From a virus, in IMG/VR virus record IMGVR_UViG_3300032073_000148, positions 1 through 30,558 of that record: a DNA stretch of 30,558 nt, one strand, 5' to 3'. The position numbers were made by a program, and so were the translations under genes. The notes below the pieces were generated by a model. It saw only the letters and a program-made list of their open reading frames with translations, was not told where the DNA came from and did not search any database. The first letter of the stretch is position 1. The number at the start of each line of letters is the position of its first letter. Of the stretch, positions 1,894 through 19,607 are shown in pieces.

Positions 1894-1904
1894 TGTCTGT
1901 TTTT
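1894..1904 (-). promoter_or_regulatory. Leader motif AAAAACAGACA before 1072-1893
   Basis: Minus strand reads AAAAACAGACA immediately followed by ATG. The motif overlaps the TAA of the upstream gene at 1903-1905, so it is intercistronic and would act in RNA. One of six matching leaders in the window. Function is inferred to be translational. Confidence 0.55.
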
Positions 1905-2085
1905 ATTTAATTAGATTAAGATTTAATTCAGAAGCTACATAGTTAATATGTTTCTGAGTTGTCATTGACCACCAGCCTAATTGTTCTAGGTTAGAGCCGT
2001 TAATTGTTGCTACGTGTGTAGTATAAGAAATAACTTTATTTCCTTCAATTCTTAGATTTTGATTGTATTTTTTTAAGTTTGGCAT
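1903..2085 (-). CDS. 60-residue conserved-type small phage protein
   Basis: First gene after promoter 2121-2151. The sequence contains VISYTTHVATING and LGWWSMTTQKHINYVASEL. This arrangement (short strands with Y-x-T-x-V-A, then W-S-[MV]-T-T-x-x-H-I-N) recalls a small uncharacterised protein (DUF8033-like) common in phages of Bacteroidota. No catalytic residues are obvious. The ATG at 2085 follows the AAAAACAGACA leader with a 2-base spacer. It heads a transcript that continues into the exonuclease and NinB-like genes, so it is probably an early or accessory gene. The function is unknown. Confidence 0.7.
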   Translation of the reverse strand: MPNLKKYNQNLRIEGNKVISYTTHVATINGSNLEQLGWWSMTTQKHINYVASELNLNLIK

Positions 2086-2087
2086 TT

Positions 2088-2098
2088 TGTCTGTTTTT
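2088..2098 (-). promoter_or_regulatory. Leader motif AAAAACAGACA before 1903-2085
   Basis: AAAAACAGACA, two bases, then ATG. It lies in the short 5' leader downstream of the promoter at 2121-2151. One of six copies. Confidence 0.55.
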
Positions 2099-2120
2099 AA
2101 TTATTAACTTAATTCTTAGA

Positions 2121-2151
2121 CAAATATAAAACTTATTTTTGTTTCTGCAAA
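2121..2151 (-). promoter_or_regulatory. Bacteroidota-type promoter P1
   Basis: On the minus strand TTTG (2151-2148), a 19-base spacer, then TATATTTG (2128-2121). This matches the known -33 TTTG / -7 TAnnTTTG arrangement of the Bacteroidota primary sigma factor. Transcription would begin a few bases further on, about 25-30 bases ahead of ATG 2085. The spacer contains AGAAACAAAAAT, shared with the promoter at 19622. Confidence 0.8.
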
Positions 2152-2171
2152 CTATTTCATAAAAAAAAACA

Positions 2172-2201
2172 AAAAAAAAGAGGAACTAAATTAGCTCCCC
2201 T
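2172..2201 (-). terminator. Rho-independent terminator T1
   Basis: On the minus strand a 10-bp stem (AGGGGAGCTA / TAGTTCCTCT, two G-U pairs) closes a 3-base loop and runs into a long T tract. It lies after the 2242-2415 gene and before promoter P1, so it separates two transcription units. Confidence 0.75.
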
Positions 2202-2241
2202 ATAAAAGATCGGATAAACAGACAACCTTTCTTTTTTATTA

Positions 2242-2415
2242 TTATATAATTTTAGCTATTCCATGCTTTACAAGATAATTAGCATTAGCCTTACTAACCT
2301 GAGACATAGCTCCCTTTTTAATCCTTCCGCTTTTAGAGTCCTTTAAATACATAATATTTATAAGATCATGACTTACAGGATTTCCTTTATTTACTAAGTT
2401 TTCTGGACTGTACAT
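2242..2415 (-). CDS. 57-residue basic hypothetical protein
   Basis: ATG 2415 to TAA 2242-2244. It contains SKSGRIKKGAMSQVSKANANYLVKHGIAKII, a basic segment with a possible helix-turn-helix-like character (AMSQVSKANANYLVKHG), though this is not secure. It ends just before terminator T1. The start codon lies only 4 bases behind a TATATTTG box, so a transcript begun there would be leaderless or nearly so. Too short for family assignment. The clean frame and the terminator behind it support it as a real gene. Confidence 0.6.
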   Translation of the reverse strand: MYSPENLVNKGNPVSHDLINIMYLKDSKSGRIKKGAMSQVSKANANYLVKHGIAKII

Positions 2416-2419
2416 AAGA

Positions 2420-2427
2420 CAAATATA
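2420..2427 (-). promoter_or_regulatory. Possible -7 box without -33 element
   Basis: TATATTTG on the minus strand, 4 bases before ATG 2415. No TTTG is found 19-21 bases upstream, so promoter activity is uncertain. Confidence 0.35.
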
Positions 2428-2428
2428 A

Positions 2429-2698
2429 TTATTTTTTTAATAGTTCCTGTATGTATATAGATCGCAAGTCTTTTAAAAAATCAAGCTCTTTAGTAACTTC
2501 TTGTAAAGTGCTTATATTAATCTTAACATTAAGATTATCGCCTTCAATTTTATTCCATTGCATATCTAAATAAGATTTTAATTTTCCGTCTATGCTTGCA
2601 ATTCGTCTTCCAAATTGAGACATTAAATCTTCAGCTAGTTCAAGCTTTTGCTCAGCTGTATAAGTAAAAAGTTTTTCAGTATATTTATTATTTTCCAT
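2429..2698 (-). CDS. 89-residue helical hypothetical protein
   Basis: ATG 2698, ending in LRSIYIQELLKK. The sequence is charged and mostly helical (EQKLELAEDLMSQFGRRIASI, LQEVTKELDFLKDLRS), consistent with a short coiled coil. No signal peptide, cysteine or catalytic motif is seen. It follows the 2710-3045 gene with an 11-base gap that holds another copy of the leader motif, so both are expressed from promoter 3069-3099. The function is unknown. Confidence 0.65.
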   Translation of the reverse strand: MENNKYTEKLFTYTAEQKLELAEDLMSQFGRRIASIDGKLKSYLDMQWNKIEGDNLNVKINISTLQEVTKELDFLKDLRSIYIQELLKK

Positions 2699-2708
2699 GT
2701 CTGTTTTT
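2699..2708 (-). promoter_or_regulatory. Leader motif before 2429-2698
   Basis: AAAAACAGAC runs straight into ATG; the last A of the motif is the A of the start codon. Intercistronic copy. Confidence 0.5.
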
Positions 2709-2709
2709 A

Positions 2710-3045
2710 TTAAATTCCGTAATGTGATTCTAAAGCTTTCTTAAGCTCTGCAGTATAATTTTCGTCTTCTACTTTAATAGGATTTCCAAAGTCATCATAG
2801 TTATAAATATGTAAATCCTCTAACTCTAATTTTAATTCTCCGTCTACTGAAGGAGCAGTAAAATAATCTCCTGCGTCGTAAGTTTGATAATTTAAAATGT
2901 TTAAATCAAATATTAAAGAAAGAGTCTCTGATCCTGGAAATTCAATTTCTGTATCGCTAAAATATTCGCTTTCAGCAGAGTCATAAGTCGGTAAAAATTT
3001 TAAGTCTAAGCTTTCAATTTTTGGTAAAGTAGTTAAATTTTGCAT
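2710..3045 (-). CDS. 111-residue acidic hypothetical protein
   Basis: First gene of the unit driven by promoter 3069-3099. It is strongly acidic (runs such as ESEYFSDTEIEF and ELKLELEDLHIYNYDDFGNPIKVEDENY) and predicted beta-rich. The C-terminus ELKKALESHYGI is short and helical. Small acidic early phage proteins are often inhibitors or DNA mimics, but nothing here shows that directly. No family is recognised. The ATG is preceded by the leader motif with no spacer. Confidence 0.65.
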   Translation of the reverse strand: MQNLTTLPKIESLDLKFLPTYDSAESEYFSDTEIEFPGSETLSLIFDLNILNYQTYDAGDYFTAPSVDGELKLELEDLHIYNYDDFGNPIKVEDENYTAELKKALESHYGI

Positions 3046-3056
3046 TGTCTGTTTTT
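3046..3056 (-). promoter_or_regulatory. Leader motif AAAAACAGACA before 2710-3045
   Basis: AAAAACAGACA directly abuts ATG 3045, 13 bases downstream of the P2 -7 box. One of six copies. Confidence 0.55.
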
Positions 3057-3068
3057 TTAAATTCTAGA

Positions 3069-3099
3069 CAAATATAAAAGCTTTTTTTGTTTTTCCAAA
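3069..3099 (-). promoter_or_regulatory. Bacteroidota-type promoter P2
   Basis: TTTG (3099-3096), 19 bases, TATATTTG (3076-3069) on the minus strand. The spacer begins GAAAAACAAAAA, close to the AGAAACAAAAAT spacers of P1 and P3. It sits in the 71-base gap between the spanin stop and the 2710-3045 gene and separates lysis genes from accessory genes. Confidence 0.8.
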
Positions 3100-3116
3100 G
3101 CTTTTAGCAATTTTTT

Positions 3117-3563
3117 TTAAAAAAAGATTTCTCTTATATTTTTCATTAGAGCTAAAGCTATAAGTAGAAAGACAATAACGATCCCAATATTTAAGTAGTT
3201 TTTATAAGGTCTATTCTCTTTAACATATTTAATTTTTTCTACTTGAAAAGGAACTTCTTTATAATAATAAACTGTGTCTCCTTTGCAGGTGATCTCATGA
3301 TATATTTCCTTAGTTATAGTATCAAAAATATATTTAGCTAATACTCTTTCCGTGTTGATAATAACTGTTGTGTCGTGGTATTCAATAAGCTTAGTAGTGT
3401 CAAAGACCAGGCTTTCAATTAAGATCGTGTCTTTAACCTGGACAGTATCTGTAGAAACTCCTATAAGTGTAGGATTATTTTTTAATATTCTATTTAATCT
3501 TTGTTGAGGTGAGCAGCTATAGAAAATAATTAAGCTAAGAAGGATTATTTTTATTTTTTTCAT
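3117..3563 (-). CDS. Probable unimolecular spanin (lipoprotein with C-terminal TM)
   Basis: 148 residues. The N-terminus is a lipoprotein signal: basic MKKIK, hydrophobic IILLSLIIF, then Y-S-C with C17 as the likely lipidated cysteine. A long polar periplasmic region (about 18-118) is rich in beta-type DTV/DTI repeats. A hydrophobic segment NIGIVIVFLLIALALM (about 124-140) is followed by a short basic-aromatic tail. A lipoprotein anchor at one end and an inner-membrane helix at the other is the architecture of u-spanins such as T1 gp11, which fuse inner and outer membranes in the last lysis step. It follows the holin-like and endolysin genes. The start overlaps the exonuclease 3' end by 29 bases. 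Topology is seen; the spanin role is inferred. Confidence 0.65.
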   Translation of the reverse strand: MKKIKIILLSLIIFYSCSPQQRLNRILKNNPTLIGVSTDTVQVKDTILIESLVFDTTKLIEYHDTTVIINTERVLAKYIFDTITKEIYHEITCKGDTVYYYKEVPFQVEKIKYVKENRPYKNYLNIGIVIVFLLIALALMKNIREIFF

Positions 3564-4308
3564 ATTGCCAAATTAAATAATTTTTATATAAGTTTAAAGA
3601 AATAGTCCAGCCTCCTCCACATGTCTGACATCTCATTCTTTTTCTAACAGTTCCACTTTTTAAAGTCCTATCTCCATTACTTCTAATTTTTTGACTCCCG
3701 CATTTTGGACAGGTCCATTTATGATCTCCATAAGCAACACCCGTATGAGTATTAACTTCGCTATACTTATAAACCTTTTTAAAAACCTTCTCTAAAACAA
3801 CAACATCTTGCTCGCAATATTCAACCATTTTAGCTAAGGCTTCAGGCTTTTTATTTAATACATCAACCCAAAGCTGAAAGCCTCCTGTCTCTAATTTAGC
3901 TCCTAATCCAAAAAATTTAGCTATATAGTCCAGCTTATTAGAATTAAAATTAAATTGTTTTCTAGCCTTTTTAAGTGTATCGTAAGAGTCTATTTTATCT
4001 GGACAATAGATATTATGAAAAGCACATCTAGTCCTTAGCCATTTTATGTCGTATCTATCACCATTATGAGCAACGCATTCGTCAGCCTTTTCAACTATTC
4101 TCATAAAGCTTTCAAGCATAGTTTTGTCCTCCTGATCCTCGTCCCAGGTCAAGCTTCTAACTTTTTTTTCATGCTCCCATTTAAAGCTAATACATATAAT
4201 CTTATTTTGTTGTATAATATTACTATGAGGCAGGTTAATTCTGTAGCCTATTCTCCATGTATAAACAACTAAAGGACTAGTTTCTATGTCAAAAAATAAA
4301 CGCTTCAG
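3535..4308 (-). CDS. DEDDy 3'-5' exonuclease with C-terminal zinc ribbon, CTG start proposed
   Basis: Coding potential runs from a stop at 4315-4317 to TGA-type stop at 3535. From CTG 4308 the product is 257 residues beginning MKRLFFDIETSP. Exo I is D7-I-E9, Exo II is HNGDRYD with D87, and Exo III is YCEQD with Y164 and D168, so all DEDDy residues of the PolB exonuclease (RNase H-like) fold are present. A zinc ribbon follows: CPKC (C200, C203) and CQTC (C226, C229). There is no ATG, GTG or TTG before Exo I. A TTG at 4152 would remove Exo I. Start is therefore CTG 4308, or translation enters by a +1 shift at TTT-TGA-C (4294-4288). Likely role: exonuclease in phage DNA metabolism. Its place inside the lysis cluster is odd. 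Confidence 0.75.
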   Translation of the reverse strand: MKRLFFDIETSPLVVYTWRIGYRINLPHSNIIQQNKIICISFKWEHEKKVRSLTWDEDQEDKTMLESFMRIVEKADECVAHNGDRYDIKWLRTRCAFHNIYCPDKIDSYDTLKKARKQFNFNSNKLDYIAKFFGLGAKLETGGFQLWVDVLNKKPEALAKMVEYCEQDVVVLEKVFKKVYKYSEVNTHTGVAYGDHKWTCPKCGSQKIRSNGDRTLKSGTVRKRMRCQTCGGGWTISLNLYKNYLIWQYEKNKNNPS

Positions 4309-4918
4309 AGTTTTCTATTTCAAGAATTGTCTGAAGATGACATTCAACAATACGATCTTGAAACTCTGTAGACATTAATAATTTAGACTCCCTAAAATTA
4401 GTCATAAAGAAATTTTCAATAAGTATTGCGGGACAGGAAGTCTTTTTTAAAATATAAAAATTAGCTTCTTTGTCTGGATCGCCATCGGTATAGTCTTTTC
4501 TAGACTTATGTTTAGGGAAATAAAGCTCCATATTTTTAATAAACATAGTAGCTATAAGATCGCTTTTAGTTTCTCCTCTAGAAGTATAAACAGAAAAACC
4601 GTTAGCGCTTTCAGAAGTAAATCCATTAGAGTGAATAGAGACTAAAACAGATTTATTGTCAGAGTGATAAATTTTATTGGCTCTGTATGCTCTATCGTGA
4701 AGAGGTATGTCTGCTTGAGTACCTTCTAAAAGGTCTACATTATCAATACTTTTTTCGTCTAATTTTTGGATTAATTTTTTTACAATATTTCTATTCCCCA
4801 CACCTTCAAAATATTGCGATCCGTCAGACCAAATAGGAGACCGTTTTCCTGGAGTTATATATTCTCCGTTTATAATACCTCCATGCCCAGCGTCTAAAAT
4901 CCAATTGAATTTACTCAT
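4289..4918 (-). CDS. N-acetylmuramoyl-L-alanine amidase endolysin (Amidase_3)
   Basis: 209 residues. The N-terminal strand ILDAGHGG carries zinc ligand H12. E38 (YFEGVGNR) and H96 (VSIHSNG) complete the zinc site, and E168 (AILIENFF) is the catalytic glutamate, so the zinc amidase core is intact. It cuts the amide bond between muramic acid and L-Ala in peptidoglycan. There is no signal peptide, so access to the wall should need the holin. The start overlaps the stop of the upstream membrane protein by 4 bases. The TGA at 4289-4291 lies inside the start region of the exonuclease and has a C after it, a weak stop context. Confidence 0.92.
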   Translation of the reverse strand: MSKFNWILDAGHGGIINGEYITPGKRSPIWSDGSQYFEGVGNRNIVKKLIQKLDEKSIDNVDLLEGTQADIPLHDRAYRANKIYHSDNKSVLVSIHSNGFTSESANGFSVYTSRGETKSDLIATMFIKNMELYFPKHKSRKDYTDGDPDKEANFYILKKTSCPAILIENFFMTNFRESKLLMSTEFQDRIVECHLQTILEIENSEAFIF

Positions 4919-5097
4919 TTTTTTTCTGGGATAGCAATTAAAGAGTCTTTAGATCGTAAAAATAAAAGTCCTACAGCTAACCAACCTGACATGTCTTGAG
5001 CTGTTTGTTTTTCTAAGTAAATAACACTAGCGCAAAATCCTAGAATTAAAACTCCTAGAATTGTAGTAACATAGTTTCCAATTAACCTATTTTTCAT
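4915..5097 (-). CDS. Small two-segment membrane protein, holin candidate
   Basis: 60 residues. A hydrophobic segment VTTILGVLILGFCASVIYL (about 10-28) is followed by a short polar link and a second, weaker segment SGWLAVGLLFL (about 38-48), ending in KK. This size and topology fit a small holin, and it is coupled by overlap to the endolysin downstream and to the 5094-5459 gene upstream. Similar short proteins sit next to amidases in phages of Bacteroidota, as far as I recall. Which of the two neighbouring membrane proteins is the holin cannot be told from sequence. Confidence 0.6.
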   Translation of the reverse strand: MKNRLIGNYVTTILGVLILGFCASVIYLEKQTAQDMSGWLAVGLLFLRSKDSLIAIPEKK

Positions 5098-5459
5098 TTT
5101 TTTAAAGATTTTATTTCACTTAATATTGTAGCAAAGCCGACATCGACTTTTTTATCTAGTTCAGAGTGTAAGTCTTGAAAAGTTTTTAAAGTGTCATTAA
5201 TACCGTCTTTATAGGTATTAAATTCATCTTTAAAGCGATCTATTCTCTGATTAGTTATTTTCATATTGTCTTCAATATTCTTAGTAATTTCATTTTTAAT
5301 AATTAATTTATTACTCTGAACATCATTAATTTTTTCTACTAAGTTACTGATTTTAAGCTCTTGTTCTGCGTTTTTTATTTTATCACGGAAAAACCAGGCT
5401 ACTAATCCTGCTAATACTCCTCCAAAATAAACTAAGTCTTTTATGTCTATTGAGTCCAT
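5094..5459 (-). CDS. Membrane-anchored coiled-coil protein, holin-associated
   Basis: 121 residues. An N-terminal hydrophobic segment LVYFGGVLAGLVAWFF (about 9-24) is followed by a long charged helical region (KIKNAEQELKISNLVEKIND onwards) that looks like a coiled coil. The order is reversed relative to XhlA-type hemolysin/holin partners, which carry the helix first. Its place directly before the small membrane protein and endolysin supports a part in lysis, either as holin or as antiholin/anchor. The ATG abuts the stop of the upstream tail gene. Confidence 0.55.
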   Translation of the reverse strand: MDSIDIKDLVYFGGVLAGLVAWFFRDKIKNAEQELKISNLVEKINDVQSNKLIIKNEITKNIEDNMKITNQRIDRFKDEFNTYKDGINDTLKTFQDLHSELDKKVDVGFATILSEIKSLKK

Positions 5460-6385
5460 TATTTGTAATTTCTTTTAATTATATTTTGAACTCTGTCTGT
5501 AAATTGAATTACGTGGCTTCTGCCATTATAATAATATAGCTCTGTAGTTTGAGAAATTTCTTTAACAGCTAAAGGTATTTCATTATAAAAACTTGTATTT
5601 GTTAAGTTATAATCGCTAATATAAATCTCATTAGCTAAGATATTATTTTCAATTATAAATTGACTAACTGAGTCCTGCACGAATTCAACTTGTAGATCGT
5701 AAGTATATTCAATTGAGTCTTGAATTTGTGTTATAGATCGGCTAGAAGTCTGATAAGTATCTGTAATATATTCAGCTTGCTTATTCCACAATATGCCGTT
5801 AATTCTTATTTGTTGATACCAATTAAGATCGGTATAATCAAAGGCGCTTCTTTCAATATTTCCATTTTGATATGTAACTATTTTAACTGATCCGTCAGCG
5901 TCGTCAGCTGAATAATTTTTAAGTAGATAGTTAGGACTTTCAATAGTTACAGCATTTCCAAATTGTGTAAGATCAGCCTTAATAGTATAAACCCCAACCC
6001 CGTGCTGAGCTAAGACTTCTTTCCATTCTATTAAATAGCCTATATAAAGCAATTGTTCGCCAGTTCCTAAAGTTCCTAAATTGTAGAAAGTACCATAATT
6101 ATTGTTGTCTAGAGTAGCAGTTTCAACTCCTGATTTATAAAGCTTTAATTGAGCTGTGTCATTTAAGCTCATTACTCTATATAAAAAACTAGTCTTGTCA
6201 TTGTCCCGATCTTCATTACTTGTTAAGCTTCCGTAGACAGTTAAATTTCTTTCACAGTCTTGAGCTACACAAGCGCATTGTTCCTCTATTTTAGCAGGAA
6301 TAGAAGCTACAGAGCTGTTTAAAATTCCATTTTGTATAGCAAAAGGCTCAGGATTAGTTCCGGTATAAAAGATATTAATTCCCAT
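5459..6385 (-). CDS. Putative tail/baseplate protein, 308 residues
   Basis: Begins MGINIFYTGTNPEPFAIQNG and is beta-rich throughout with many Tyr, Asn and Thr residues. One acidic CACVAQDCER segment holds three cysteines near residues 37-44. No enzymatic motif is visible. It lies between fibre-type genes and the lysis genes, overlaps the upstream 75-residue gene by one base and joins the downstream gene, and its composition resembles the tail genes before it. A baseplate or tail-tip surface role is inferred from position; the family is not recognised. Confidence 0.6.
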   Translation of the reverse strand: MGINIFYTGTNPEPFAIQNGILNSSVASIPAKIEEQCACVAQDCERNLTVYGSLTSNEDRDNDKTSFLYRVMSLNDTAQLKLYKSGVETATLDNNNYGTFYNLGTLGTGEQLLYIGYLIEWKEVLAQHGVGVYTIKADLTQFGNAVTIESPNYLLKNYSADDADGSVKIVTYQNGNIERSAFDYTDLNWYQQIRINGILWNKQAEYITDTYQTSSRSITQIQDSIEYTYDLQVEFVQDSVSQFIIENNILANEIYISDYNLTNTSFYNEIPLAVKEISQTTELYYYNGRSHVIQFTDRVQNIIKRNYK

Positions 6386-6612
6386 TATTCAACAATTTCA
6401 GAGTTACTTTTAAAATTTCCATTAGCAAACTCATAATAACAAAACTTCCAAGCTTTGCCCCAATATATAGAAATAAACTCCTCTATTTTAGGAAGTTCTG
6501 TTTCATCTATTCCACCTATAAAAACAGCTAACTCACCTCTAGACATATCTACATCAAAAAGCTGTGAAGCTATAGTTAATAAATTTTCCCTTAATAGTTC
6601 TAGATCATTCAT
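6385..6612 (-). CDS. 75-residue hypothetical protein
   Basis: Starts MNDLELLRENLLTIASQLF and ends in an acidic tail. The middle holds SRGELAVFIGGIDETELPKIEEFI, and a WGKAWKFCYYEF aromatic segment. It is predicted alpha/beta with no membrane segment. It is fitted between two tail-type genes with a 2-base gap and a 1-base overlap, so it is co-translated with them. Possible tail or assembly accessory; the function is unknown. Confidence 0.6.
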   Translation of the reverse strand: MNDLELLRENLLTIASQLFDVDMSRGELAVFIGGIDETELPKIEEFISIYWGKAWKFCYYEFANGNFKSNSEIVE

Positions 6613-6614
6613 AA

Positions 6615-7271: not shown

Positions 7272-7283
7272 ATTTTTTTAATT

Positions 7284-8375: not shown

Positions 8376-10883
8376 TTATTCTAATATTTTGTCGGTCCCG
8401 TCTTCCTTCAATTTCTGTGTATTATTTTCCATTTTTTTATCTCCAACAACTGGAGGCTCAACATCACTACTCCAAAGCCTAGAGCTAATTGTGTAAGAGC
8501 TTCCTTCAGTCATATTAGCAGAATTACTCTGACAGATTAAGTCTACATAATACCCAGCCGGATCAATCTCAATTTTTGTTCTTGTCTCCCCAGCAATTGG
8601 CTTCAATAAGTTGTTAATTGTTAAAGGATCGTTATTTGCTAAGGTACTCAATTCTTGAATTGAAAACAAACCACCTTGAGCAGTATCTATTCTTATTACT
8701 CCTGTGTAGTTAGTAAAGCCTAAAACAGCTCCGTCAACCCTAGTAAATCTAGCCTTAATAATGCAGTCTTCATTTGTTAATAAGCTTCCGCTTGTGTCAT
8801 TTCCTGTACTTAGTTGAGTAGTAGTAAAATCAACCTGGTGAATAGGAGTTAAATTAGTTTTAGGAGTATTGTCATTTCCATAATTTCTAGCTATAGACTC
8901 AGGAAAATAAAGACTATAATTAGTTGAACTAGCGTCTACATTAAATCCGTTAGCGTCAACAAAATTAGAGTTGCTAACATTTAAGTCTAGTCTAGGATAA
9001 ATATTAAAATTTTCAAAGACTGAATAATTAGAAGTGTTAAGGTTTAAGTTGTTATTAGTCTTAGTATTATCATAAAAAATAGAATTAACATTAGGATTAG
9101 CAAGCCACTCTTCCCAATTTATTTTAAATCCTATTTGAGCTTTATACTGAGTAACACCTCCAGCAGTTGAAAGAGTTTCAAAATTAGCTAAATTAAATTG
9201 ATCTCCTGCTTCTAAATTAAAGCCTCTAGTAGAGTTTAAGTTAATACTTTGTTGAGTGTATGTCTGTCCAGTTATAGCGGTATTAATAGAAGAGCTTAAG
9301 TCTATGTCAAAAGGATAAATAACAAACTCTTCATTTGTAATATTATTATAAGCTACAATATTAAAAGACATTTTATTTATTATAGCTCCATAGTCTGCCC
9401 TAGAGTTTAAGTGAAACTCGCACAGATAACCGTCCTCAACCATTCCATTGAAGCTGTCATAAGTGTCAGCTGTAGGATCGGTTAAAAAATTATTATGGTT
9501 ATAAATTTTAATATTTCTAGGCTCTTTATCTTCAATCTCAACAAGACCAGGAACATCTGAAGTTGATTCAAAAGGAGCATAATCAACTAGTAAACTAACT
9601 CTGTCGTCTTGTTGGTTAGTTATTCCAAAGCTCCCAATACTAATCCAGACAATATAGCTTTCACCATTATTAATAATTGCTGACTGAGCAGGAGTAAGAT
9701 CAACATCAAAGTCTATAGTTAAGCTATTAGTTCCAGCTGTAGAAGTAGAAATATTTTTTATAATAGTTGAGTCTCCTATTATGCTTTGAACATTACAGAA
9801 AGCATTATCATATAAAAAAGTATTTTCAAAATTTGTATTAGGAATAAAATTAGCTTCGTCCACAGCTCTTGAAAATCCTATATTAAAAGTCTGTCCAGCC
9901 TGGAAAGTAGTAGCTGAATTTATTACTACTTGACAATTAGTAACTCCTCCAGATTTAATAGCATTATTAGTCCCGCTAAAAGTAAAAGATGTTACACTAA
10001 AATTATTAGTAAATCCATTAAAATTTTCATTAAACCAGCCAACATTCCCTAAGAGATCAGAGCTTTCTAATATTTTTTGACTATTAACATTTCCAAGTCC
10101 TGGACGTAAATCAACATTAAGAATATACTTTAAGGAGTTAGTTCCGTTAAGATCAGGAGGAATAGTTCCGTTGTTATAAAAGACAGAGTAGTTAGTTAAG
10201 TAATAAGGTAAAATAATAAACTCATGCTCTATTTCAAAGACTTGATAAGCATTAGCATTTTGTCCTATATTTTCAATTTTAACAATTCCATTTTGCCAGG
10301 TTATAGCTGATCCATTAGTTAAGACCTGCATAGTTTGTTGTCCTGAAGCTATCTGACTAGCAAAATAGACTTGCTCTTCTTGATTTAAAACACTTGTATA
10401 TTGAGCATTAGCATTATTCTCAACAAGATTATATTTTAAAATTGCTGAGTCTAAAGCATTACTTCCTACCATGCTTCCAGTGTCATAAGTCCCAGAAGTA
10501 GCTGTTCCAGTTGCTACATCTACAAACATAGTCCCACTTGAAACAAAAGTTACATCTCCAGTAAAAACTACACTTTGAGGAGTTGAATTAATCATTGCTA
10601 AATTAACACTATCTCCAACAGTCCAGCCATCAAGAATAAAATCTCCATTATTAAAATTTAATTGTGCTAAGGTACTTCCAGCAGCTGGAGCAATTACTTG
10701 AACAGTATTAAATTCAGAGGCTATAGAAAACCAACGAAGCTGAATTGTAGAAACAGCCTTAACCTTGTCTCCTACATTTCCTTGTAGAGCAACAGTAAAA
10801 TCAGTAAGAGAACCTGAAAAGTTTTGTCCATTCCTAGTCTGACTATAAAATTTTTGTTCAGTTAAAAAAGCTTCGAGTCCCAT
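8376..10883 (-). CDS. Large putative tail/baseplate protein, 835 residues
   Basis: Starts MGLEAFLTEQKFYSQTRNGQNF. It is long, beta-rich, Asn/Thr/Ser-rich and nearly free of Cys and His over hundreds of residues, typical of a structural tail protein. Several FSGTNNAI-like, strand-turn-strand stretches hint at repeated beta domains. The C-terminus becomes charged and helical (KKMENNTQKLKEDGTDKI). It lies two genes after the tape measure, so a baseplate or central-fibre part is likely. No catalytic motif was found and the family is not recognised. Confidence 0.6.
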   Translation of the reverse strand: MGLEAFLTEQKFYSQTRNGQNFSGSLTDFTVALQGNVGDKVKAVSTIQLRWFSIASEFNTVQVIAPAAGSTLAQLNFNNGDFILDGWTVGDSVNLAMINSTPQSVVFTGDVTFVSSGTMFVDVATGTATSGTYDTGSMVGSNALDSAILKYNLVENNANAQYTSVLNQEEQVYFASQIASGQQTMQVLTNGSAITWQNGIVKIENIGQNANAYQVFEIEHEFIILPYYLTNYSVFYNNGTIPPDLNGTNSLKYILNVDLRPGLGNVNSQKILESSDLLGNVGWFNENFNGFTNNFSVTSFTFSGTNNAIKSGGVTNCQVVINSATTFQAGQTFNIGFSRAVDEANFIPNTNFENTFLYDNAFCNVQSIIGDSTIIKNISTSTAGTNSLTIDFDVDLTPAQSAIINNGESYIVWISIGSFGITNQQDDRVSLLVDYAPFESTSDVPGLVEIEDKEPRNIKIYNHNNFLTDPTADTYDSFNGMVEDGYLCEFHLNSRADYGAIINKMSFNIVAYNNITNEEFVIYPFDIDLSSSINTAITGQTYTQQSINLNSTRGFNLEAGDQFNLANFETLSTAGGVTQYKAQIGFKINWEEWLANPNVNSIFYDNTKTNNNLNLNTSNYSVFENFNIYPRLDLNVSNSNFVDANGFNVDASSTNYSLYFPESIARNYGNDNTPKTNLTPIHQVDFTTTQLSTGNDTSGSLLTNEDCIIKARFTRVDGAVLGFTNYTGVIRIDTAQGGLFSIQELSTLANNDPLTINNLLKPIAGETRTKIEIDPAGYYVDLICQSNSANMTEGSSYTISSRLWSSDVEPPVVGDKKMENNTQKLKEDGTDKILE

Positions 10884-12888: not shown

Positions 12889-12894
12889 AACTTT

Positions 12895-15800: not shown

Positions 15801-16659
15801 TCGCTTTACTTGATTTAATAATTTCATCAGGCTTAAATCCAAGCTTTGCAAGTTCCAGGCTTAGATCAGCTACTTCAGAAGCAGTAAATTTAGTTGTTTC
15901 TCCAAGTGCTAAAGCGTTTTTCCTTAGTGCTTCTAGGTCTTCGTCTGAAGCTTGAGAAACAGCTCCTAAGTTAGCAATAGAAGAGTCAAAGTCAGTAACT
16001 ACATTTATAGCACTTCTTAGACCTCTTACAACTCCAGTAATTCCTGCAGTAACTCCAACAGCACTCATTAAATTTCCAAAGCCTGCTTTTAAAGCGCTTC
16101 CATAGTTTCCTACATTCCTTTGATATTGTCCAGCGCTTTTATCAACAGCTTTTAATTTCTTGTCTAACCTTCCTACTTGCTCAGCTAGTCTTTTAGCTTC
16201 TTTTGTATTTCCTTTTCCTGCAATTAATAAATCTTTATAACGTTTTCTTAAAGTGTTTAAAGTCTTAGCTTGTCTATCATAGGCAGAAACTAATCCTAAC
16301 TCAGCTCTAGCTTGATCTTTTAGTTGTTTATTTCTTTGTTGTTGTTGGACCTTAAGTCTAGCATTATTCTTAGCTTGTTTCTCAGCAGATTGATTTAACT
16401 TATTAAGTAACCTAACCCTTTCTTTTTCTAAGGCTATTAAGTTTTTTTCTGCTTGTGATACTTTCTGAGTTTCCTCTGCTTGTTTTCTTATTCCTTCTGA
16501 ATTATTAGGCTTTACTTTTAAAGCCTCCTTAGAAGCTTTCATAAGCTCCAACATTTGAGTCTTAAGTTCCTTAACAACTCCAATCATTGTCCTGATCTCT
16601 TCGGTTGTTCCTTTAAATAATTGCGGGTCAAATATGTCTTCTTTTCTAATTTTAGCCAT
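12895..16659 (-). CDS. Tail tape measure protein (TP901-type)
   Basis: 1254 residues. N-terminal coiled coil (about 30-180), then the PhageMin_Tail/TP901 tape-measure core at about 220-470, with DSSIANLGAVSQASDEDL, ALALGETTKFTASEVADL and a GVATTKSALDMEFFNTA stretch. Hydrophobic segments near 515-530 and 578-592 follow, then long charged coiled coils (about 620-1080). The protein sets tail length and fills the tail tube. At about 0.15 nm per residue, tape measures of this size go with tails near 180-190 nm, so the virion is a long-tailed siphovirus type. The start overlaps the upstream gene by 8 bases. Confidence 0.93.
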   Translation of the reverse strand: MAKIRKEDIFDPQLFKGTTEEIRTMIGVVKELKTQMLELMKASKEALKVKPNNSEGIRKQAEETQKVSQAEKNLIALEKERVRLLNKLNQSAEKQAKNNARLKVQQQQRNKQLKDQARAELGLVSAYDRQAKTLNTLRKRYKDLLIAGKGNTKEAKRLAEQVGRLDKKLKAVDKSAGQYQRNVGNYGSALKAGFGNLMSAVGVTAGITGVVRGLRSAINVVTDFDSSIANLGAVSQASDEDLEALRKNALALGETTKFTASEVADLSLELAKLGFKPDEIIKSSKAILDLSAATGQDLAESAKITGQTLRAFNLDVEESGRVASVLGVATTKSALDMEFFNTAMSKVAPVAASLGFELEDTTALLGTLANSGFDASTAATSTKNILLKLADSGGELAQALGRPVKNLDDLIPALKELAGQGIDLSEALELTDKRSVAAFNTFLKGTDTLEELREGITDVNQELADMAEKQLDTVNGQLALLNSKWQAMILGTSDSAGAVNGLKSAIAFLTRNLDTILKVLKFVVIAFVSYKTAVIAQNVALTAYNLITKGARIATLLFSGATKRAAVGMRGLNTAIKSNPLGLLISLLTTAIALLWDYGDAADEQVESIDRLSDAYERLKQEQSAYFKEIEFTQSKAIALIDLEIAKAKERGASDAELHKLKLKRIDEELKANLYKDGRAYDKLLEFVKLRDEAQETFNKDSASLTFYNKLLNSETSTYNTRKQAKEQIKFFSQRLKNSKLTLDNAQKNVDEQQALLDGLSEEAELLKINSKIKISNLNTTKKGNKARKVTNKFAADLLELKKEELSLERNIEKAVRDKLILNKENNIKDLTQAGIERASDPEVVDFDQDGEIDLDFYDDRVFTDLKEGFTQLYFQRKFQLDEALAYENKVEERNTQALKNKYKSQLDNRQLTKKQYDALIIKADDNLTEALKLNQINYDAKIKKVNEDRVTGYEKAEKEIIDAAQTTADKQLQIAENTEAEKLARLSDTIQATNALLDFFQRQNDARAQRQIDNINKEIEASKNRYNELKQLSINGNVDAEKSALAEERIQQEQELKRQKVQRNQQLFNAGIAAFKVFAAKVESGDKAPLSSTIKDITSLTAFIQTLPTFYEGTEDVGSSLGKPDLAGRDGHIVRVDSAERIVDPSNNAKMAGLTNSELGDLALDYKNKSLNGIKYNKLSPSTFESVANSLAVNYHLSSKLDEINRSNNKIISAIEHIPHESWDYDKMSDAVIQKIKTQKKTEIIHYNNKSLF

Positions 16660-17236
16660 CTTGTTTAGCAGTTTTCATCTTTATTTTCTCTGATTCATCT
16701 TGTATTAATTCAAGATAAGTAAAATACTTTTTAGTTGATAAAGTCTTAATGTCTAAAGAACTTCCTAACCATTTTTCAATTAGGATCACCTGCTTATTAT
16801 AATCATTCCCATCTTTATCAACAATATTTTTTGAGTTTTCTTTTTGTAGCTCCTTTTCTTTTATTCTTATTTCATTCTTTAAAAAGTTATTATTATTAAT
16901 ATACATATTACATTTTAATATAGCGATCTTTCTTTCAAGCTCTAAGACTCTTTTATATTTTTTTGTAAATCCAAAATTATCAATATACTCATCTAATATT
17001 TTTCTCCATACAATATCCAGCTCCTCATTAATATTATCATTAATTGCTAAGATAGCATAATCAGAGCTTTTTATTAAATATTTATAGTCTTTCTCAGCGT
17101 AGAGCTTAATCCAATTCCATAAAGGAAGATCGTCAAGCTCATTAAAATATTTATATTCTATCTGAATTAAATCTTTTTTAGACTTTAAAGATTTTCTCTT
17201 TAATATATTTTTGAGCCGGTAAAATAATTTTTTCAT
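16652..17236 (-). CDS. Tail assembly chaperone-position protein, 194 residues
   Basis: Begins MKKLFYRLKNILKRKSLKSKK, basic, then ELDDLPLWNWIKLYAEKDYKYL and a long helical region with IDNFGFTKKYKRVLELERKIA and VILIEKWLGSSLDIKTLS. The ELPLWNWI pattern and the position just before the tape measure match a recurring protein in phages of Bacteroidota. Tail assembly chaperones occupy this slot in other siphophages. No slippery frameshift site was identified. The start overlaps the preceding gene by 59 bases; a later start within the basic N-terminus would reduce that. Confidence 0.55.
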   Translation of the reverse strand: MKKLFYRLKNILKRKSLKSKKDLIQIEYKYFNELDDLPLWNWIKLYAEKDYKYLIKSSDYAILAINDNINEELDIVWRKILDEYIDNFGFTKKYKRVLELERKIAILKCNMYINNNNFLKNEIRIKEKELQKENSKNIVDKDGNDYNKQVILIEKWLGSSLDIKTLSTKKYFTYLELIQDESEKIKMKTAKQDG

Positions 17237-17651
17237 TTAAAATATCTAAGCTATGTTGATTAAGTCCTATTATTTCTCTTCCATATTTAATTGTAAGATT
17301 AGTTTCAAGTCCAGTCTGCTCATCAATCTTAATAGGATCGGCTGAAATAATAATGTCTCCTGAGTTATCTACGTGAGCTAAGAAGCTCTTATAAAAGTCT
17401 CCTGTATCTTTTAAAGTAACTCTATCTGTCGGCTGTCCTTTAGCTTGTTTTAATTCAACAGTAAAAGGAGTATATTCAGGAGTAATTTCATTTCCTAAAG
17501 CGTCTTCACCTTTTTTGAAAAGCTGATCTTCAGTATTTAAAGTAACTATTAAATTAAGTAAGCTTCTATCTTTGCCTACAACCTGGACCATTAAAGTCTG
17601 AGCAGTTAATTTTTTTTGTATTCCTTCTAAATATCTTATTATACTATCCAT
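17178..17651 (-). CDS. Putative tail completion/terminator protein, 157 residues
   Basis: Starts MDSIIRYLEGIQKKL at 17651 and ends KYIKEKIFKV. It contains VELKQAKGQPTDRVTLKDTGDFYKSF, a strand-rich middle with the DTGxFYxSF pattern often seen in phage neck and tail-completion proteins. The size fits HK97 gp10-like or related head-tail joining proteins, but sequence alone is not decisive. It overlaps the upstream membrane micro-ORF by 8 bases and the downstream gene by 59. Confidence 0.55.
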   Translation of the reverse strand: MDSIIRYLEGIQKKLTAQTLMVQVVGKDRSLLNLIVTLNTEDQLFKKGEDALGNEITPEYTPFTVELKQAKGQPTDRVTLKDTGDFYKSFLAHVDNSGDIIISADPIKIDEQTGLETNLTIKYGREIIGLNQHSLDILNEKIILPAQKYIKEKIFKV

Positions 17652-17742
17652 ACTTTAAAAGTACAAAAAATAAAAATAGAGTTAATATTATATTAAATAT
17701 ACTAAGCCAGAAAGCAAGATTAGCTCTTTTACTATATCTCAT
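17644..17742 (-). CDS. 32-residue single-pass membrane micro-protein
   Basis: ATG 17742 to TAG 17644-17646. It starts MRYSKRANLAFWLSI and is then almost entirely hydrophobic (FNIILTLFLFFVLL) before a KYG end, giving a positive-inside single-span topology. The start lies inside the end of the methyltransferase gene and the stop overlaps the next ATG by 8 bases (ATGGATAG). The frame fills an otherwise empty gap exactly, which supports translation. A similar micro-protein occurs at 21803-21913. The function is unknown. Confidence 0.5.
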   Translation of the reverse strand: MRYSKRANLAFWLSIFNIILTLFLFFVLLKYG

Positions 17743-18796
17743 TTAACCACTGATTAAAAATGTTATTAGCTATCTGCGCAACCATTACAGGAGGGACAGA
17801 CATTCCTATTAAATACTTAGGCTTATTATCTAAAAAATTATAGTCTACAGGATAGCTTCCTATTCTACAATATTCTAAGTCAGTGCATGATCTTAATTTT
17901 GACGGGTGCCAGTGAAATGATCCATGACTATTAGCTATAATAGTATTGGGAACTTTATCAAAGCTTAATTTATTTTCTCCAAAATAATGTCCCTTTTCAT
18001 GTACTGTCCCAAAGTTATGACCAGGCTGACACTTAAGCCAAAGGAATTTATAAGAGTCTCTAACTTCAGGATCGTTTCCTTTTGAAGTGTCTTCAACCTC
18101 CTTAAAAGTAATAGGCTTTTCTTTGAATACTAAATCTAACTTAGGAACTTCTGTAAACATATCCTTATAGTATAAAAACTTTTTAGCTAAGTCTTTTCTA
18201 AGACATACAAAAAAAACTCTTTCACGTCTTTGAGGAACTCCCATTGTTGAGGCGTCTAAAAGCCAGTGCTGACAATAATAACCTGCTTTGTCAAATTCTG
18301 AATAAATATCTCTAACATACTTAATAGCGTTCCCCATCATTAAGCCTTTTACATTTTCAGCTACTACAACTTTAGGCTGTAGCTCTTTAGCTAAATCTAT
18401 AAAATCAAAGAATAAATTATCTAAGACCTGCTCAGCCTGTCCTTCCCTAAATTTCTTTTCTTTTCCCCAATCCTTTTCACGATTCCCAGCCATTGAAAAG
18501 CTAGAGCAAGGCGGACTTCCGTCTAATATGTCTAGATCATAAAGCTCACTAGGTAAATCTTTTCTTTCTTTAAAAGTTTGAATAGGCTCTAAAAAAGAGT
18601 ATTTAGGATCGTGATTAGTTCTATAAGCTTCAATCATTTTTGGATCAATTTCATTACAGCCTAAGACATCAAACCCGGCTAACTTATACCCCATTGTTGA
18701 GCCTCCTCCGCATGCAAAACAACTAAAAACTTTTCCTTTATCCTTAGTAAAATTAGAGTCTGCTAAGGTCCAATTGTAGTTAAATTTATTTTCCAT
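17732..18796 (-). CDS. DNA (cytosine-5-)-methyltransferase
   Basis: 354 residues with the ordered C5-methyltransferase motifs. Motif I SCFACGGGSTMGYKLAGF (about 25-42) binds S-adenosylmethionine, motif II is NEIDP (48-52), motif IV is GSPPCSSFSMAG with nucleophile C97, motif VI is AENV (146-149), motif VIII is QRRER (189-193), and motif X is near the C-terminus (GMSVPPVMVAQIANNIF). All key residues are present, so the enzyme should be active. It likely protects phage DNA from host restriction. The target sequence cannot be read from the gene. It ends the accessory cassette inserted between tail genes, and no cognate restriction gene is adjacent. Confidence 0.93.
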   Translation of the reverse strand: MENKFNYNWTLADSNFTKDKGKVFSCFACGGGSTMGYKLAGFDVLGCNEIDPKMIEAYRTNHDPKYSFLEPIQTFKERKDLPSELYDLDILDGSPPCSSFSMAGNREKDWGKEKKFREGQAEQVLDNLFFDFIDLAKELQPKVVVAENVKGLMMGNAIKYVRDIYSEFDKAGYYCQHWLLDASTMGVPQRRERVFFVCLRKDLAKKFLYYKDMFTEVPKLDLVFKEKPITFKEVEDTSKGNDPEVRDSYKFLWLKCQPGHNFGTVHEKGHYFGENKLSFDKVPNTIIANSHGSFHWHPSKLRSCTDLEYCRIGSYPVDYNFLDNKPKYLIGMSVPPVMVAQIANNIFNQWLNEI

Positions 18797-18797
18797 A

Positions 18798-19067
18798 TTA
18801 TAAAGAATTAACTTCTACTTCAGTAAGTGTAAAAATTCCGTTATCTCCTCTAAATCTAATTTCCTTATCGTCTTCAGATTCGTCTATTGTAACTGTGCCT
18901 CCTTCGTGGAATTCAATGTCCCAATATATATCCGGTCTTTCTTTATGTAACCAACTAACTAGCCGATCTATAAAGCGATTAGTCTCTTTTCCTAGTTGTC
19001 CTATAGGATAGTCTTTAACTAATATTAAAAATCCTTCGTAACCCTGTGCTTGAAATAGTATGTCCAT
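18798..19067 (-). CDS. 89-residue acidic hypothetical protein
   Basis: Starts MDILFQAQGYEGFLILVKDY. It is alpha/beta, with a WLHKERPDIYWDIEFHEGG segment and an acidic IDESEDDKEIRF stretch near the end. It lies one base before the methyltransferase start and one base after the 19069-19389 gene, so the three are a tight unit. No family is recognised. It could be an anti-host or methyltransferase-associated accessory, but this is context only. Confidence 0.6.
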   Translation of the reverse strand: MDILFQAQGYEGFLILVKDYPIGQLGKETNRFIDRLVSWLHKERPDIYWDIEFHEGGTVTIDESEDDKEIRFRGDNGIFTLTEVEVNSL

Positions 19068-19068
19068 T

Positions 19069-19389
19069 TTAATTCTGTTTTTTAGCTGTGATTAATTCTA
19101 ATATTTGTCTAGCATATCTATAATTATTCCAGGAATAATAGCTATCTGTTGAGACCATTTCAAGTCCTATTTCATATATATATAACCTATAACCAAAATA
19201 AGTCTTGCTTCCTCCGCTTGTGAAGTATCTAAAGCCAGAAGGCTTAGACCATTTCTCTTCTGACCATTCGCTTAAGCTATGCTTTATATTAAGCTCATTT
19301 AATAGATCAGAAACTTTTTTTAGTGAAGGCATACGTCCCTTGTCTGTAGCCTTAACTTTTAATTGTTCTATAACTTTTAGATTTTTCAT
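19069..19389 (-). CDS. 106-residue hypothetical protein of the methyltransferase cassette
   Basis: Starts MKNLKVIEQLKVKATDKGRM, then PSLKKVSDLLNELNIKHSLSEW, and a Tyr/Gly-rich strand region with FTSGGSKTYFGYRLYIYEI. It is predicted alpha/beta with no membrane segment and no catalytic signature. The ATG at 19389 follows the leader motif with a 1-base spacer. It is transcribed from the cassette promoter at 19622-19653. I recall proteins like this (helical start, then FRYF-S/G-G-S-K-T-Y) in flavobacterial phages without a known role. Confidence 0.6.
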   Translation of the reverse strand: MKNLKVIEQLKVKATDKGRMPSLKKVSDLLNELNIKHSLSEWSEEKWSKPSGFRYFTSGGSKTYFGYRLYIYEIGLEMVSTDSYYSWNNYRYARQILELITAKKQN

Positions 19390-19390
19390 T

Positions 19391-19401
19391 TGTCTGTTTT
19401 T
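19391..19401 (-). promoter_or_regulatory. Leader motif AAAAACAGACA before 19069-19389
   Basis: AAAAACAGACA, one base, ATG 19389. It lies between the 19403-19597 gene and this gene, so it is an intercistronic copy. Confidence 0.55.
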
Positions 19402-19402
19402 T

Positions 19403-19597
19403 TTATATGAATAATTTATTTATTTTGTTTGGAACTTCGTTTTTAAAAACTGTTTTCATTCCAACTATTAGATTATAATGTTTTGTATAAATAAAAGTTT
19501 TTTCCCCTTTAGTATTTATATAAGTTTCTAAAAGATCATACACCTTTTTATTTCCATGTGTATATGTGTGAGCTGTTTTTCTAGTAATTAAATACAT
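19403..19597 (-). CDS. 64-residue hypothetical protein, start moved to ATG 19597
   Basis: MYLITRKTAHTYTHGNKKVYDLL start, then Tyr/Lys-rich strands (GEKTFIYTKHYNLIVGMK). A longer frame from TTG 19624 would begin inside the -7 box of the promoter and is not used; ATG 19597 directly follows the leader motif. First gene of the methyltransferase cassette. The basic, beta-rich composition gives no family clue. The function is unknown. Confidence 0.6.
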   Translation of the reverse strand: MYLITRKTAHTYTHGNKKVYDLLETYINTKGEKTFIYTKHYNLIVGMKTVFKNEVPNKINKLFI

Positions 19598-19607
19598 GTC
19601 TGTTTTT
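19598..19607 (-). promoter_or_regulatory. Leader motif before 19403-19597
   Basis: AAAAACAGAC runs straight into ATG 19597. It decides the start codon of this gene. It lies downstream of the -7 box at 19622-19629. Confidence 0.55.

Follow-up and report, generated by a model that had tools for sequence, protein, structure and literature searches.

A common leader and its inverted copy in the window

The stretch of viral DNA analysed here (30,558 nt, hereafter the window) carries seven copies of AAACAGACA against 0.20 expected, a count reached in 0 of 100 dinucleotide shuffles. Six of the seven copies lie on the minus strand (1894-1902, 2088-2096, 2698-2706, 3046-3054, 19391-19399 and 19597-19605), each 0-2 nt from the ATG of a gene (ATGs at 1893, 2085, 2698, 3045, 19389 and 19597), the final A of the motif being the A of ATG at 2698 and 19597. 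CAGACA stands at the start codon of only these six among the 35 ATG-initiated ORFs (≥60 aa) of the minus strand. The six AAACAGACA leaders to which a preliminary description of this DNA had pointed are genuine and far above chance, and its further observation that some follow a promoter while others are intercistronic also holds: a TATATTTG box lies upstream of the leader genes at 2085, 3045 and 19597, and an upstream gene is close by at 1893, 2698 and 19389. The gene at 1072-1893 encodes an exonuclease VIII-like protein (phrog_412, E 3.5e-47; DUF3799), and the leaders of the 19389 and 19597 genes are the same in L060. The seventh copy, at 2216-2225, was overlooked in the preliminary description; it is inverted, giving TTGTCTGTTT on the coding strand (2225-2216), a sequence antisense to each of the six leaders. 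This anti-leader element falls in a non-coding stretch between a 57-aa ORF (2242-2415) and the promoter box at 2128. The features concerned are as follows.

1894..1904, minus strand: leader AAAAACAGACA; ATG 1893, gene 1072-1893, intercistronic; pairing with the anti-region -13.9 kcal/mol
2088..2098, minus strand: leader AAAAACAGACA; ATG 2085, 60-aa gene 1903-2085, promoter box upstream; -14.0 kcal/mol
2121..2128, minus strand: promoter box TATATTTG of the 60-aa/exonuclease operon
2171..2201, minus strand: intrinsic terminator with a 10-bp stem and T-run, the expected end of the anti-leader transcript
2204..2231, minus strand: hairpin predicted by folding, with UCUGUUUAUC (part of the anti-leader element) in the loop
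2216..2225, minus strand: anti-leader element TTGTCTGTTT, antisense to the six leaders
2242..2415, minus strand: 57-aa ORF with the anti-leader element in its 3' UTR; 60% identical homologue in L201
2420..2427, minus strand: promoter box TATATTTG, 4 nt before ATG 2415
2698..2708, minus strand: leader AAAAACAGACA; ATG 2698 (A shared), 89-aa gene 2429-2698, intercistronic; -13.4 kcal/mol
3046..3056, minus strand: leader AAAAACAGACA; ATG 3045, 111-aa gene 2710-3045, promoter box upstream; -13.9 kcal/mol
3069..3076, minus strand: promoter box TATATTTG of the 111-aa/89-aa operon
19073..19080, minus strand: degenerate leader AAACAGAA, ending 5 nt before ATG 19067 (89-aa gene)
19391..19401, minus strand: leader AAAAACAGACA; ATG 19389, 106-aa gene 19069-19389, intercistronic; -12.5 kcal/mol
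19597..19607, minus strand: leader AAAAACAGACA; ATG 19597 (A shared), 64-aa gene 19403-19597, promoter box upstream; -11.6 kcal/mol
19622..19629, minus strand: promoter box TATATTTG of the 64-aa/106-aa/methyltransferase cassette

The hairpin around the anti-leader element, predicted immediately ahead of the terminator (MFE -17.8, z -2.85), was matched by 1 of 200 shuffles, and the centroid structure opens part of its stem. The terminator is the sole terminator-like site in 1-5500; as shuffles average 1.7 such sites, a count of one is not above chance. The anti-leader copy possesses no promoter box of its own, occupying a 3'-UTR position with a terminator present, and we infer use of the box at 2420..2427, presumably as the start of the anti-leader transcript.

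The anti-leader element is complementary to several unlinked mRNAs close to their start codons, the six leaders lying at 1.9-3.0 kb and 19.4-19.6 kb. By duplex energy the leaders rank 1-5 and 8 among 39 starts, with the non-leader starts at 20057 and 19829 outranking the weakest leader and that at 16659 coming close, and the pairing extends to the A of AUG in four of the six. The summed pairing of the anti-region with the leaders beats 1000 of 1000 mononucleotide shuffles, and the best four of 4360 sliding segments of the minus strand overlap the anti-leader element, although the next best elsewhere, at 9663, is fairly near (-75.6 vs -83.1). Among 168 words matching the anti-word in composition, anti-words and their overlapping registers take five of the top six ranks before terminators, a ranking in which shared ancestry is not fully controlled.

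Mini-genes and matched words in related phages

Uncultured phages carry a mini-gene of ~55 nt, composed of a TAnnTTTG promoter box, a short seed and a terminator, and many genes of these phages bear a complementary leader against the ATG. Seed TGTTCTGTT goes with leader AACAGAACA, seed ATTCTGTTTTGTT with leaders AACAGAAT and ACAAAACAG, and seed CAAATGGTTTTGG with AAAACC-ATG, as seed TTGTCTGTTT goes with leader AAACAGACAA in the window. In one such genome, G061, the mini-gene reads TTTG-N19-TACATTTG followed by UUCUGUUCUGUU and a terminator; AACAGAACA precedes four genes and AAACAGACAGA two, these six leader genes are the six best targets among 37 starts, and the anti-element resembles a transcription unit of its own, with targets up to ~11.6 kb off. 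A scan blind to leaders returned at least 34 mini-genes (by pattern) among the 115 parsed matches listed, and same-strand AACAGAACA leaders accompany 18 of these 34 vs 1 of the 81 other matches listed (Fisher p 7e-11, a value that treats loci as independent, which they are not); at the remaining 16 listed mini-gene loci no leader occurs in the stretch available. A scan blind to seeds yielded seeds of three classes, and to each belongs a separate leader word. In class I, AACAGAACA occurs 49 times, in 24 of 43 loci; class III has AACAGAAT 29 times in 15 of 15 loci and ACAAAACAG 10 times in 6 of 15, two words that can belong to one leader; and the class IV word occurs 15 times in 5 of 5 of its own loci and 0 times in loci of classes I and III. 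Outside all three classes are 28 of the 72 promoter-bearing matches, and several unclassed matches that were inspected had few or weak leader matches. The main class tests cover 114, 107 and 119 loci from three scans, and seed-position and class IV pairing data refer to the matches listed (80 of 120, 80 of 107 and 80 of 120); in-gene starts were filtered from the class counts by word pattern, and 16 of the 153 "leader genes" begin within an AAA_25 protein gene and are to be ignored. Class II comprises two contigs only, the window and L058, the latter with a single leader, and no free-standing TGTCTGTTT mini-gene was present among 107 scan matches.

On these sequences, seed and targets co-vary, in few lineages and with ancestry uncontrolled; since the phages of classes I and III are related and fall into a single cluster, independent events of seed and leader change are few, and the class/leader association tests do not fully control for shared ancestry. 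Pairing in classes III and IV reaches the start codon, class IV including the AU of AUG, and the mini-gene terminator shows compensatory change in 5 of 12 pairs. At two orthologous genes, a phage's own seed gave better pairing than permuted seeds, with dG p values of 5e-5 and 1e-4 and shared ancestry uncontrolled. Orthologues of the 60-aa gene (1903-2085) mostly have a AACAGAACA leader. Some orthologous genes have no leader despite the presence of a seed, in L192, L254, L231, L264, L301 and L369. L201 has both the exonuclease and the 57-aa gene in common with the window; its 57-aa homologue is immediately followed by TTTGTTCTGTTTATAT in a hairpin, at a site orthologous to the window hairpin. 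L201 also has a AACAGAACATG leader, its single strongly pairing leader, and two other starts outrank it. On the 2085 leader of the window, the L201 anti-region reaches -14.7 vs -14.0 for the window's own.

A terminase search gave 34 related loci, one of which is the same phage (L007, 99.6% over 8118 nt) and another 70% identical at the terminase (L008). Ten of the 34 records have CAGACA within 3 nt of an ATG, usually a single time, and G022 (63.7 kb) has five CAGACA-ATG sites vs one control match. Peptide patterns of the window exonuclease found no IMG/VR relatives, and among cultured phages the protein met distant exonucleases only. Flavobacterium phages have a 233-nt exonuclease stretch in common with the window's first 8 kb. 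Neither the 60-aa protein nor the class IV region had a match among cultured phages, to which the mini-gene showed only weak 25-40 nt matches, in Mannheimia phages and otherwise mostly Firmicutes phages. The host of the window virus is probably a member of the Bacteroidota. A first promoter-leader scan gave two hits, taken as chance.

A candidate antisense small RNA and competing explanations

The leaders, the anti-element, the terminator, the pairing rank and the joint change of seed and leader from one related phage to another support, at the level of sequence, a model by which the leader is likely the target of a phage-encoded, trans-acting antisense small RNA that represses translation of a gene set. 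Pairing between seed and leader is the well-supported part of this model; that the RNA is made and stable, that it represses rather than activates, and its timing, we infer. The RNA would be the 3' part of a short transcript comprising the 57-aa ORF, UUGUCUGUUU in the hairpin and the terminator, and would form a 9-10 nt duplex with AAACAGACA(A) at all six start codons. As pairing reaches the A of AUG in four of six, the 30S subunit should be blocked and translation repressed, separately for each cistron, whether it stands behind a promoter or another gene. The accessory set would thereby be lowered together, namely the recombination exonuclease, small proteins of no known function and the genes ahead of the methyltransferase. 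Counting against a small RNA is the arrangement of the element: in the window the RNA would derive from a 3' UTR, whereas relatives have their mini-genes as free-standing units. The coordinating role that the preliminary description gave the leader appears to stand, and its suggested RNA-binding regulator survives as a regulator that would most likely be the phage's own RNA, which a helper protein may or may not assist.

The pairing evidence would equally support an RNA that activates or counters silencing, by protecting the mRNA or freeing the start site, or leaders that serve as decoys, and bacterial small RNAs can activate; however, pairing enters the start codon in four window leaders and in classes III and IV, and the AT-rich leaders would offer little structure to open, so that this reading is improbable. 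Less probable still is a DNA operator, with AACAGACA/AACAGAACA just downstream of promoters recognised as DNA by a repressor protein. The inverted copy would then count as a further operator, placed in relatives at the promoter of the mini-gene itself. Such a site could function in both orientations and would be expected to vary in step with its other copies, and the seed of relatives, among the matches listed, likewise lies just downstream of the TAnnTTTG box. However, the leaders are one-directional, with 0-1 on the opposite strand, and in relatives they hold to the ATG (-2 to 4 nt, sd 1.5 nt) while spacing to the promoter box is looser (sd 8.3, n=26, unfiltered for in-gene starts). For 47 of the 73 leader hits in classes I and III, a set that contains some false starts within a single coding gene, no TAnnTTTG box occurs within 60 nt, nor is a promoter box near three of the six window leaders. 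Further, the anti-element follows an ORF, away from a promoter box, in the window, L058 and L201, the class IV pairing takes in part of the start codon, and compensatory changes mark the stem of the terminator that closes the mini-gene. The tie to the ATG rather than to the promoter is in agreement with the earlier proposal that the signal works on RNA, at translation start.

A further proposal takes CAGACA for an A-rich ribosome signal of Bacteroidota, here of their phages, the antisense copy then arising by chance. The leaders are A-rich, and one source reports that A at -3, -6, -12 and -13 favours initiation in Flavobacterium johnsoniae (PMC6847099). Compared with the start context described there, the leaders likewise place an A-rich stretch right before the ATG, but they consist of a specific CAGACA, CAGAACA or AAAACC in variable register to the ATG and have a matching antisense element. 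The motif pattern gave 77 hits in host genomes of many phyla, some preceding apparently real host genes in Bacteroidota. However, nine host genomes (~31 Mb, picked for having one motif site) hold 35 motif sites vs 22 reversed-control sites, little above control for a general start signal, and on this count a host regulon was also dropped. As the window's other genes lack the word, and the word changes along with the antisense element, the ribosome signal is very unlikely. Equally hard to credit is attenuation in cis alone, with the anti-element pairing with the 2088-2098 leader on a read-through transcript and the other genes uninvolved: the two lie <140 nt apart on one strand, but a terminator stands between them, two of the six leaders are ~17 kb distant, and the G061 element looks like its own unit with distant targets.

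Relation to known RNAs and possible reach

Bacterial trans-encoded small RNAs combine a short seed with an intrinsic terminator and pair with several mRNAs at the start region, and the prophage RNA DicF has several host targets. The candidate RNA resembles these in seed, terminator and multiple start-region targets; it differs in being phage-encoded and seemingly aimed at the phage's own genes, in targets sharing one dedicated word that changes with the seed, and in a host phylum without Shine-Dalgarno sites. OOP acts on cII and is encoded opposite it, unlike the present RNA, which would be encoded in trans and address several targets through a 9-13 nt seed; sar is an RNA of phage P22. A review describes c4 RNA (P1, P7) as a phage antisense RNA that pairs around a ribosome-binding site and blocks translation, its complementary stretches thought to sit in loops, and OOP as a short lambdoid phage RNA with its own promoter, antisense to phage mRNA, with OOP, sar and c4 each acting on one mRNA (PMC12197685). 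Within that account, the candidate would resemble c4 and sar as a phage-encoded antisense RNA pairing with phage mRNA, and OOP as a short phage RNA antisense to phage mRNA, with a promoter box of its own in the mini-genes of relatives, but in place of the one target mRNA of c4 and sar (antirepressor) it would address a scattered gene set with a common leader. Literature searches found nothing resembling the leader/antisense system, no Rfam family reached gathering score in the window, L189, L209, L234, L194, L058 or L198, and the c4 covariance model had no match in the window or six relatives. The mini-gene pattern occurred in 4 of 395 genomes of the order of a Tenacibaculum genome, and by eye none of the five stretches listed held the G-rich hairpin.

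One short RNA seems to run a phage gene set via a common leader, and the four matched seed-leader words make co-evolution of seed and target directly readable among phages. This suggests how gene-specific translational control may be built in Bacteroidota, whose start sites do not offer the Shine-Dalgarno sequence blocked by many small RNAs, and a working system could supply compact orthogonal translation switches for this phylum. More speculatively, and with the odds against it, the words may form a private address code by which the early genes of each phage lineage are marked with its own word, and its own RNA shuts down precisely the genes so marked. If so, words would diverge between competing phages and decide, during co-infection or superinfection, who silences whom. 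This would amount to heteroimmunity at the level of RNA, in a phylum that has no Shine-Dalgarno sites.

The gene at 19067 is possibly a weak seventh target, as its degenerate leader AAACAGAA pairs weakly with the anti-region (-7.3 kcal/mol) and its homologues in L206 and L326 have AACAGAACA leaders.

Leaders and an inverted copy in the window

The word AAACAGACA occurs seven times in the window, a virus record of 30,558 bases, against 0.20 copies expected, a number reached in none of 100 shuffles. Six minus-strand copies adjoin the ATG codons at 1893, 2085, 2698, 3045, 19389 and 19597, as the preliminary description had placed them, and the mixed setting it described also holds, with a TATATTTG box ahead of three of the six leaders and none ahead of the other three. 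Among 35 minus-strand ORFs (at least 60 aa, ATG start), only these six carry CAGACA at the start codon. The seventh copy is inverted and complementary to the leaders:

2216-2225, anti-element: inverted copy between the stop of the 57-aa ORF and a terminator; the coding strand reads GGTTGTCTGTTTATCC

The terminator 3' of this anti-element, a 10-bp stem with a T-run, is the only terminator-like site in 1-5500 (shuffle mean 1.7), and the element itself is predicted to fold as a hairpin with part of the antisense word exposed in the loop. When 39 gene starts are ranked by duplex energy with the anti-region, the leaders take places 1-5 and 8, and the energy summed over the six beats 1000 of 1000 mononucleotide shuffles of that region. 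When windows are slid along the strand (n=4360), the top four overlap the anti-region (-83.1 to -77.5), the next (-75.6) lying at 9663.

Seeds and leader words in related phages

A relative from an uncultured phage carries a comparable pair, its antisense element being a mini-gene, that is, a unit of about 55 nt with a TAnnTTTG promoter box, a short seed and a terminator:

G061 (IMGVR_UViG_3300025543_000202): orthologue of the window's 60-aa gene, leader AAAAACAGAACAG before ATG

The other leader genes of G061 carry AACAGAACA (three) and AAACAGACAGA (two), and the separate mini-gene lies 3' of ninG (Pfam NinG), reading TTTG-N19-TACATTTG, AACGTTCTGTTCTGTT, a hairpin and nine T (spacing counted by eye). 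The six best targets of its anti-region among 37 starts are its six leader genes, and swapping the antisense regions of the window and G061 weakens pairing at 12 of 12 leaders tested.

Four seed classes (I-IV) are distinguished, each with its own leader word. A scan for promoter-leader pairs using AACAGAAC (class I) returned at least 74 stretches, of which many hold more than one leader and some include the mini-gene seen in G061. Among 168 words of anti-word composition counted before terminators, the anti-words and their overlapping registers took five of the top six ranks; TGTTCTGT stood in 24 loci and GTTCTGTT in 23, every other word in six at most, and when related contigs are counted as one cluster, the two words score 3 and 2, where the average word scores 0.24. 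A leader-blind scan (TTTG - TGTTCTGTT - T8) returned at least 120 stretches, from which 115 matches in 114 loci were parsed; among the matches listed, 34 of the 115 fit the mini-gene pattern (a promoter box, then a G-rich stretch and CC before T8). Same-strand AACAGAACA leaders accompany 18 of these 34 against 1 of the 81 others, and opposite-strand ones 1 of 34 against 8 of 81, again among the matches listed; the same-strand contrast gives a Fisher p of 7e-11 with loci treated as independent, though they are related. The word TGTCTGTTT in the same scan gave no mini-genes in 107 matches and no free-standing gene of the window's type. At L198 5877 and L200 1228, in contigs that carry AACAGAACAATATG leaders, TGTTCTGTT abuts a strong terminator; these two sites lack a TAnnTTTG box and may represent the system in an independent form.

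A seed-blind scan (promoter, gap, AAAGGGGT hairpin, CCT8) returned at least 120 stretches, and the 119 matches parsed comprise, among those listed, 24 of class I, 15 of class III, 5 of class IV and, outside these classes, 28 that have a TA..TTTG box; the remaining 47 lack the box. New seeds are found with no seed in the query, and the leader words change accordingly. Among the matches listed, loci with the class III seed ATTCTGTTTTGTT hold the leader AACAGAAT 29 times (15/15 loci) and ACAAAACAG 10 times (6/15); those with a class IV seed containing AAATGGTTTTGG hold AAAACC-ATG 15 times (5/5), a word found in none of 43 class I and none of 15 class III loci; and class I loci, both scans pooled, hold AACAGAACA 49 times (24/43). 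Off-diagonal words, on the same basis, are AACAGAAT (14) and AACAGACA (5) in class I and AACAGAACA (4) in class III. The class IV mini-genes (TACGGATTTCTTGTCAAATGGTTTTGG), whose leader AAAACC runs into ATG, include:

L494 4429-4497
L499 4317-4385
L537 2228-2296

The stretch L494 4000-6200 found no relative among the cultured phage collection. In the inspected part of the 28 other boxed matches, the seeds of L528, L497 and L491 match their own leaders, and L493, L500, L523 and others have few or no leader matches. Further promoter-seed-terminator units with other seeds (e.g., AGCGTCTGTCTTAATT, CATCAGTTTGTTTCATTTCAG) occur in L485, L500, L501, L522 and L523, their leader matches being weak or few.

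Own seeds pair better than permuted ones at two orthologous genes, the 49-aa gene (p 1e-4 by dG, 0.007 by longest complement) and the 60-aa gene (5e-5 and 0.0016), in a permutation that ignores shared ancestry and a set in which several leaders have no match at all to their own seed. Among sixteen aligned mini-genes, 5 of the 12 pairs in the terminator stem show compensatory changes. Most of the contigs compared are partial genomes of uncultured phages, and independent origins are few, since the phages of classes I and III belong to a single cluster of relatives and those of class IV to another. Orthologues of the 49-aa gene in L264, L305, L326, L192, L231 and L254 lack the leader, with the seed RNA sequence present, a possible natural escape from control.

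The window's lineage and host

The window is of class II, as is a second contig, L058, in which an 11-nt match (TTGTCTGTTTC) precedes a terminator and one leader occurs. The related contig L201 (record G480, 34,295 bases) compares with the window at 48.6% for the exonuclease, 60% for the 57-aa protein, 41% for the 89-aa protein and 43% for the 53-aa protein. Immediately past the stop of its 57-aa homologue stands TGGGG TTTGTTCTGTTTATAT CCCCA, then a strong hairpin and an interrupted T-run; place and shape are as in the window, the word is that of class I, and the 89-aa homologue has the leader AAAAAAACAGAACATG, as would be expected had both partners switched in this lineage. The L201 anti-region is also weaker than the window's own at five of six window leaders. 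However, at leader 2085 it is about equal (-14.7 against -14.0), its single strong pairing in L201 is with the leader of the 89-aa homologue (-12.5), starts 14085 and 6225 outscore that leader, partly via the GGGG/CCCC arms, and the exonuclease leader is complementary over 8 nt only.

Promoter boxes of the TAnnTTTG kind are found in Bacteroidota. The window's boxes are of this kind; among 20 matches listed for its terminase, phages of Bacteroides, Parabacteroides and Porphyromonas show 38-44% identity; and in its exonuclease-like gene (3535-4152), 233 nt align with Flavobacterium phages at 70% identity. The host is therefore most likely a member of the Bacteroidota. The nine host genomes in which the motif was counted were chosen because each contained one site. 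Whole contigs L060, at 99.3% identity, and L007, at 99.6%, represent the same phage, and in L060 the methyltransferase cassette keeps both of its leaders intact. In G022 (record of L026, 63,730 bases), a distant terminase relative, CAGACA-(0-3)-ATG occurs five times against one control match.

Action on RNA and the proposed control

That the signal acts on RNA, as proposed earlier, is supported by ATG-bound spacing, promoter-less leaders, one-strand orientation and an anti-element 3' of ORFs. Leader spacing varies by an sd of 1.5 nt to ATG and 8.3 to the promoter box (n=26), and no box lies within 60 nt for 47 of 73 leader hits, some of the 73 being spurious starts within a coding sequence. 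Leaders lie on one strand (opposite, 0 or 1); without the ORF filter, 16 class I words near ATG appear on the opposite strand, and these are probably complements of the seeds, given that an ATG occurs in TACATTTG when it is read in reverse. The anti-element lies 3' of an ORF in the window, L058 and L201.

In the window, computed pairing of four of the six leaders reaches as far as the A of AUG; in classes III and IV it includes AU. In F. johnsoniae, according to one study, start-region structure tends to reduce initiation, which is favoured by adenines at -3, -6, -12 and -13 (PMC6847099); by these rules, an RNA covering this stretch should repress. The putative antisense RNA would thus cover the leader, often with part of the start codon, and repress translation; both this direction and the timing of control are inferred, the system as a whole being proposed from sequence.

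Rfam gave no matches at gathering score in seven sources including the window, and no such system appeared among the open-licence papers listed on phage small RNAs, antisense RNAs and leaders, Bacteroidetes translation initiation, Flavobacterium phage transcriptomes or crAssphage small RNA. Among phage small RNAs, a review from 2025 names, in the portion available, OOP, sar, c4, aQ and PAK_P4as15, with zero occurrences there of "Bacteroid" and "regulon" (PMC12197685). Within these sources, the candidate would therefore be new among phage antisense RNAs, in that a gene set is targeted instead of a single target.

In the 6.8-kb contig L055, where no antisense element before a T-run was found, two copies of a promoter box and AAAAACAGACAAATG leader (3131-3167 and 3794-3830) precede different genes, the upstream 45 nt compared being identical, and resemble a moving promoter-leader cassette. 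In the window, TATATTTG or TAAATTTG boxes at 26615, 22691, 2427 and 10895 (minus strand) precede genes 26602, 22676, 2415 and 10883, respectively, at a distance of only 4-7 nt from the ATG, so that the transcripts may have little or no leader.
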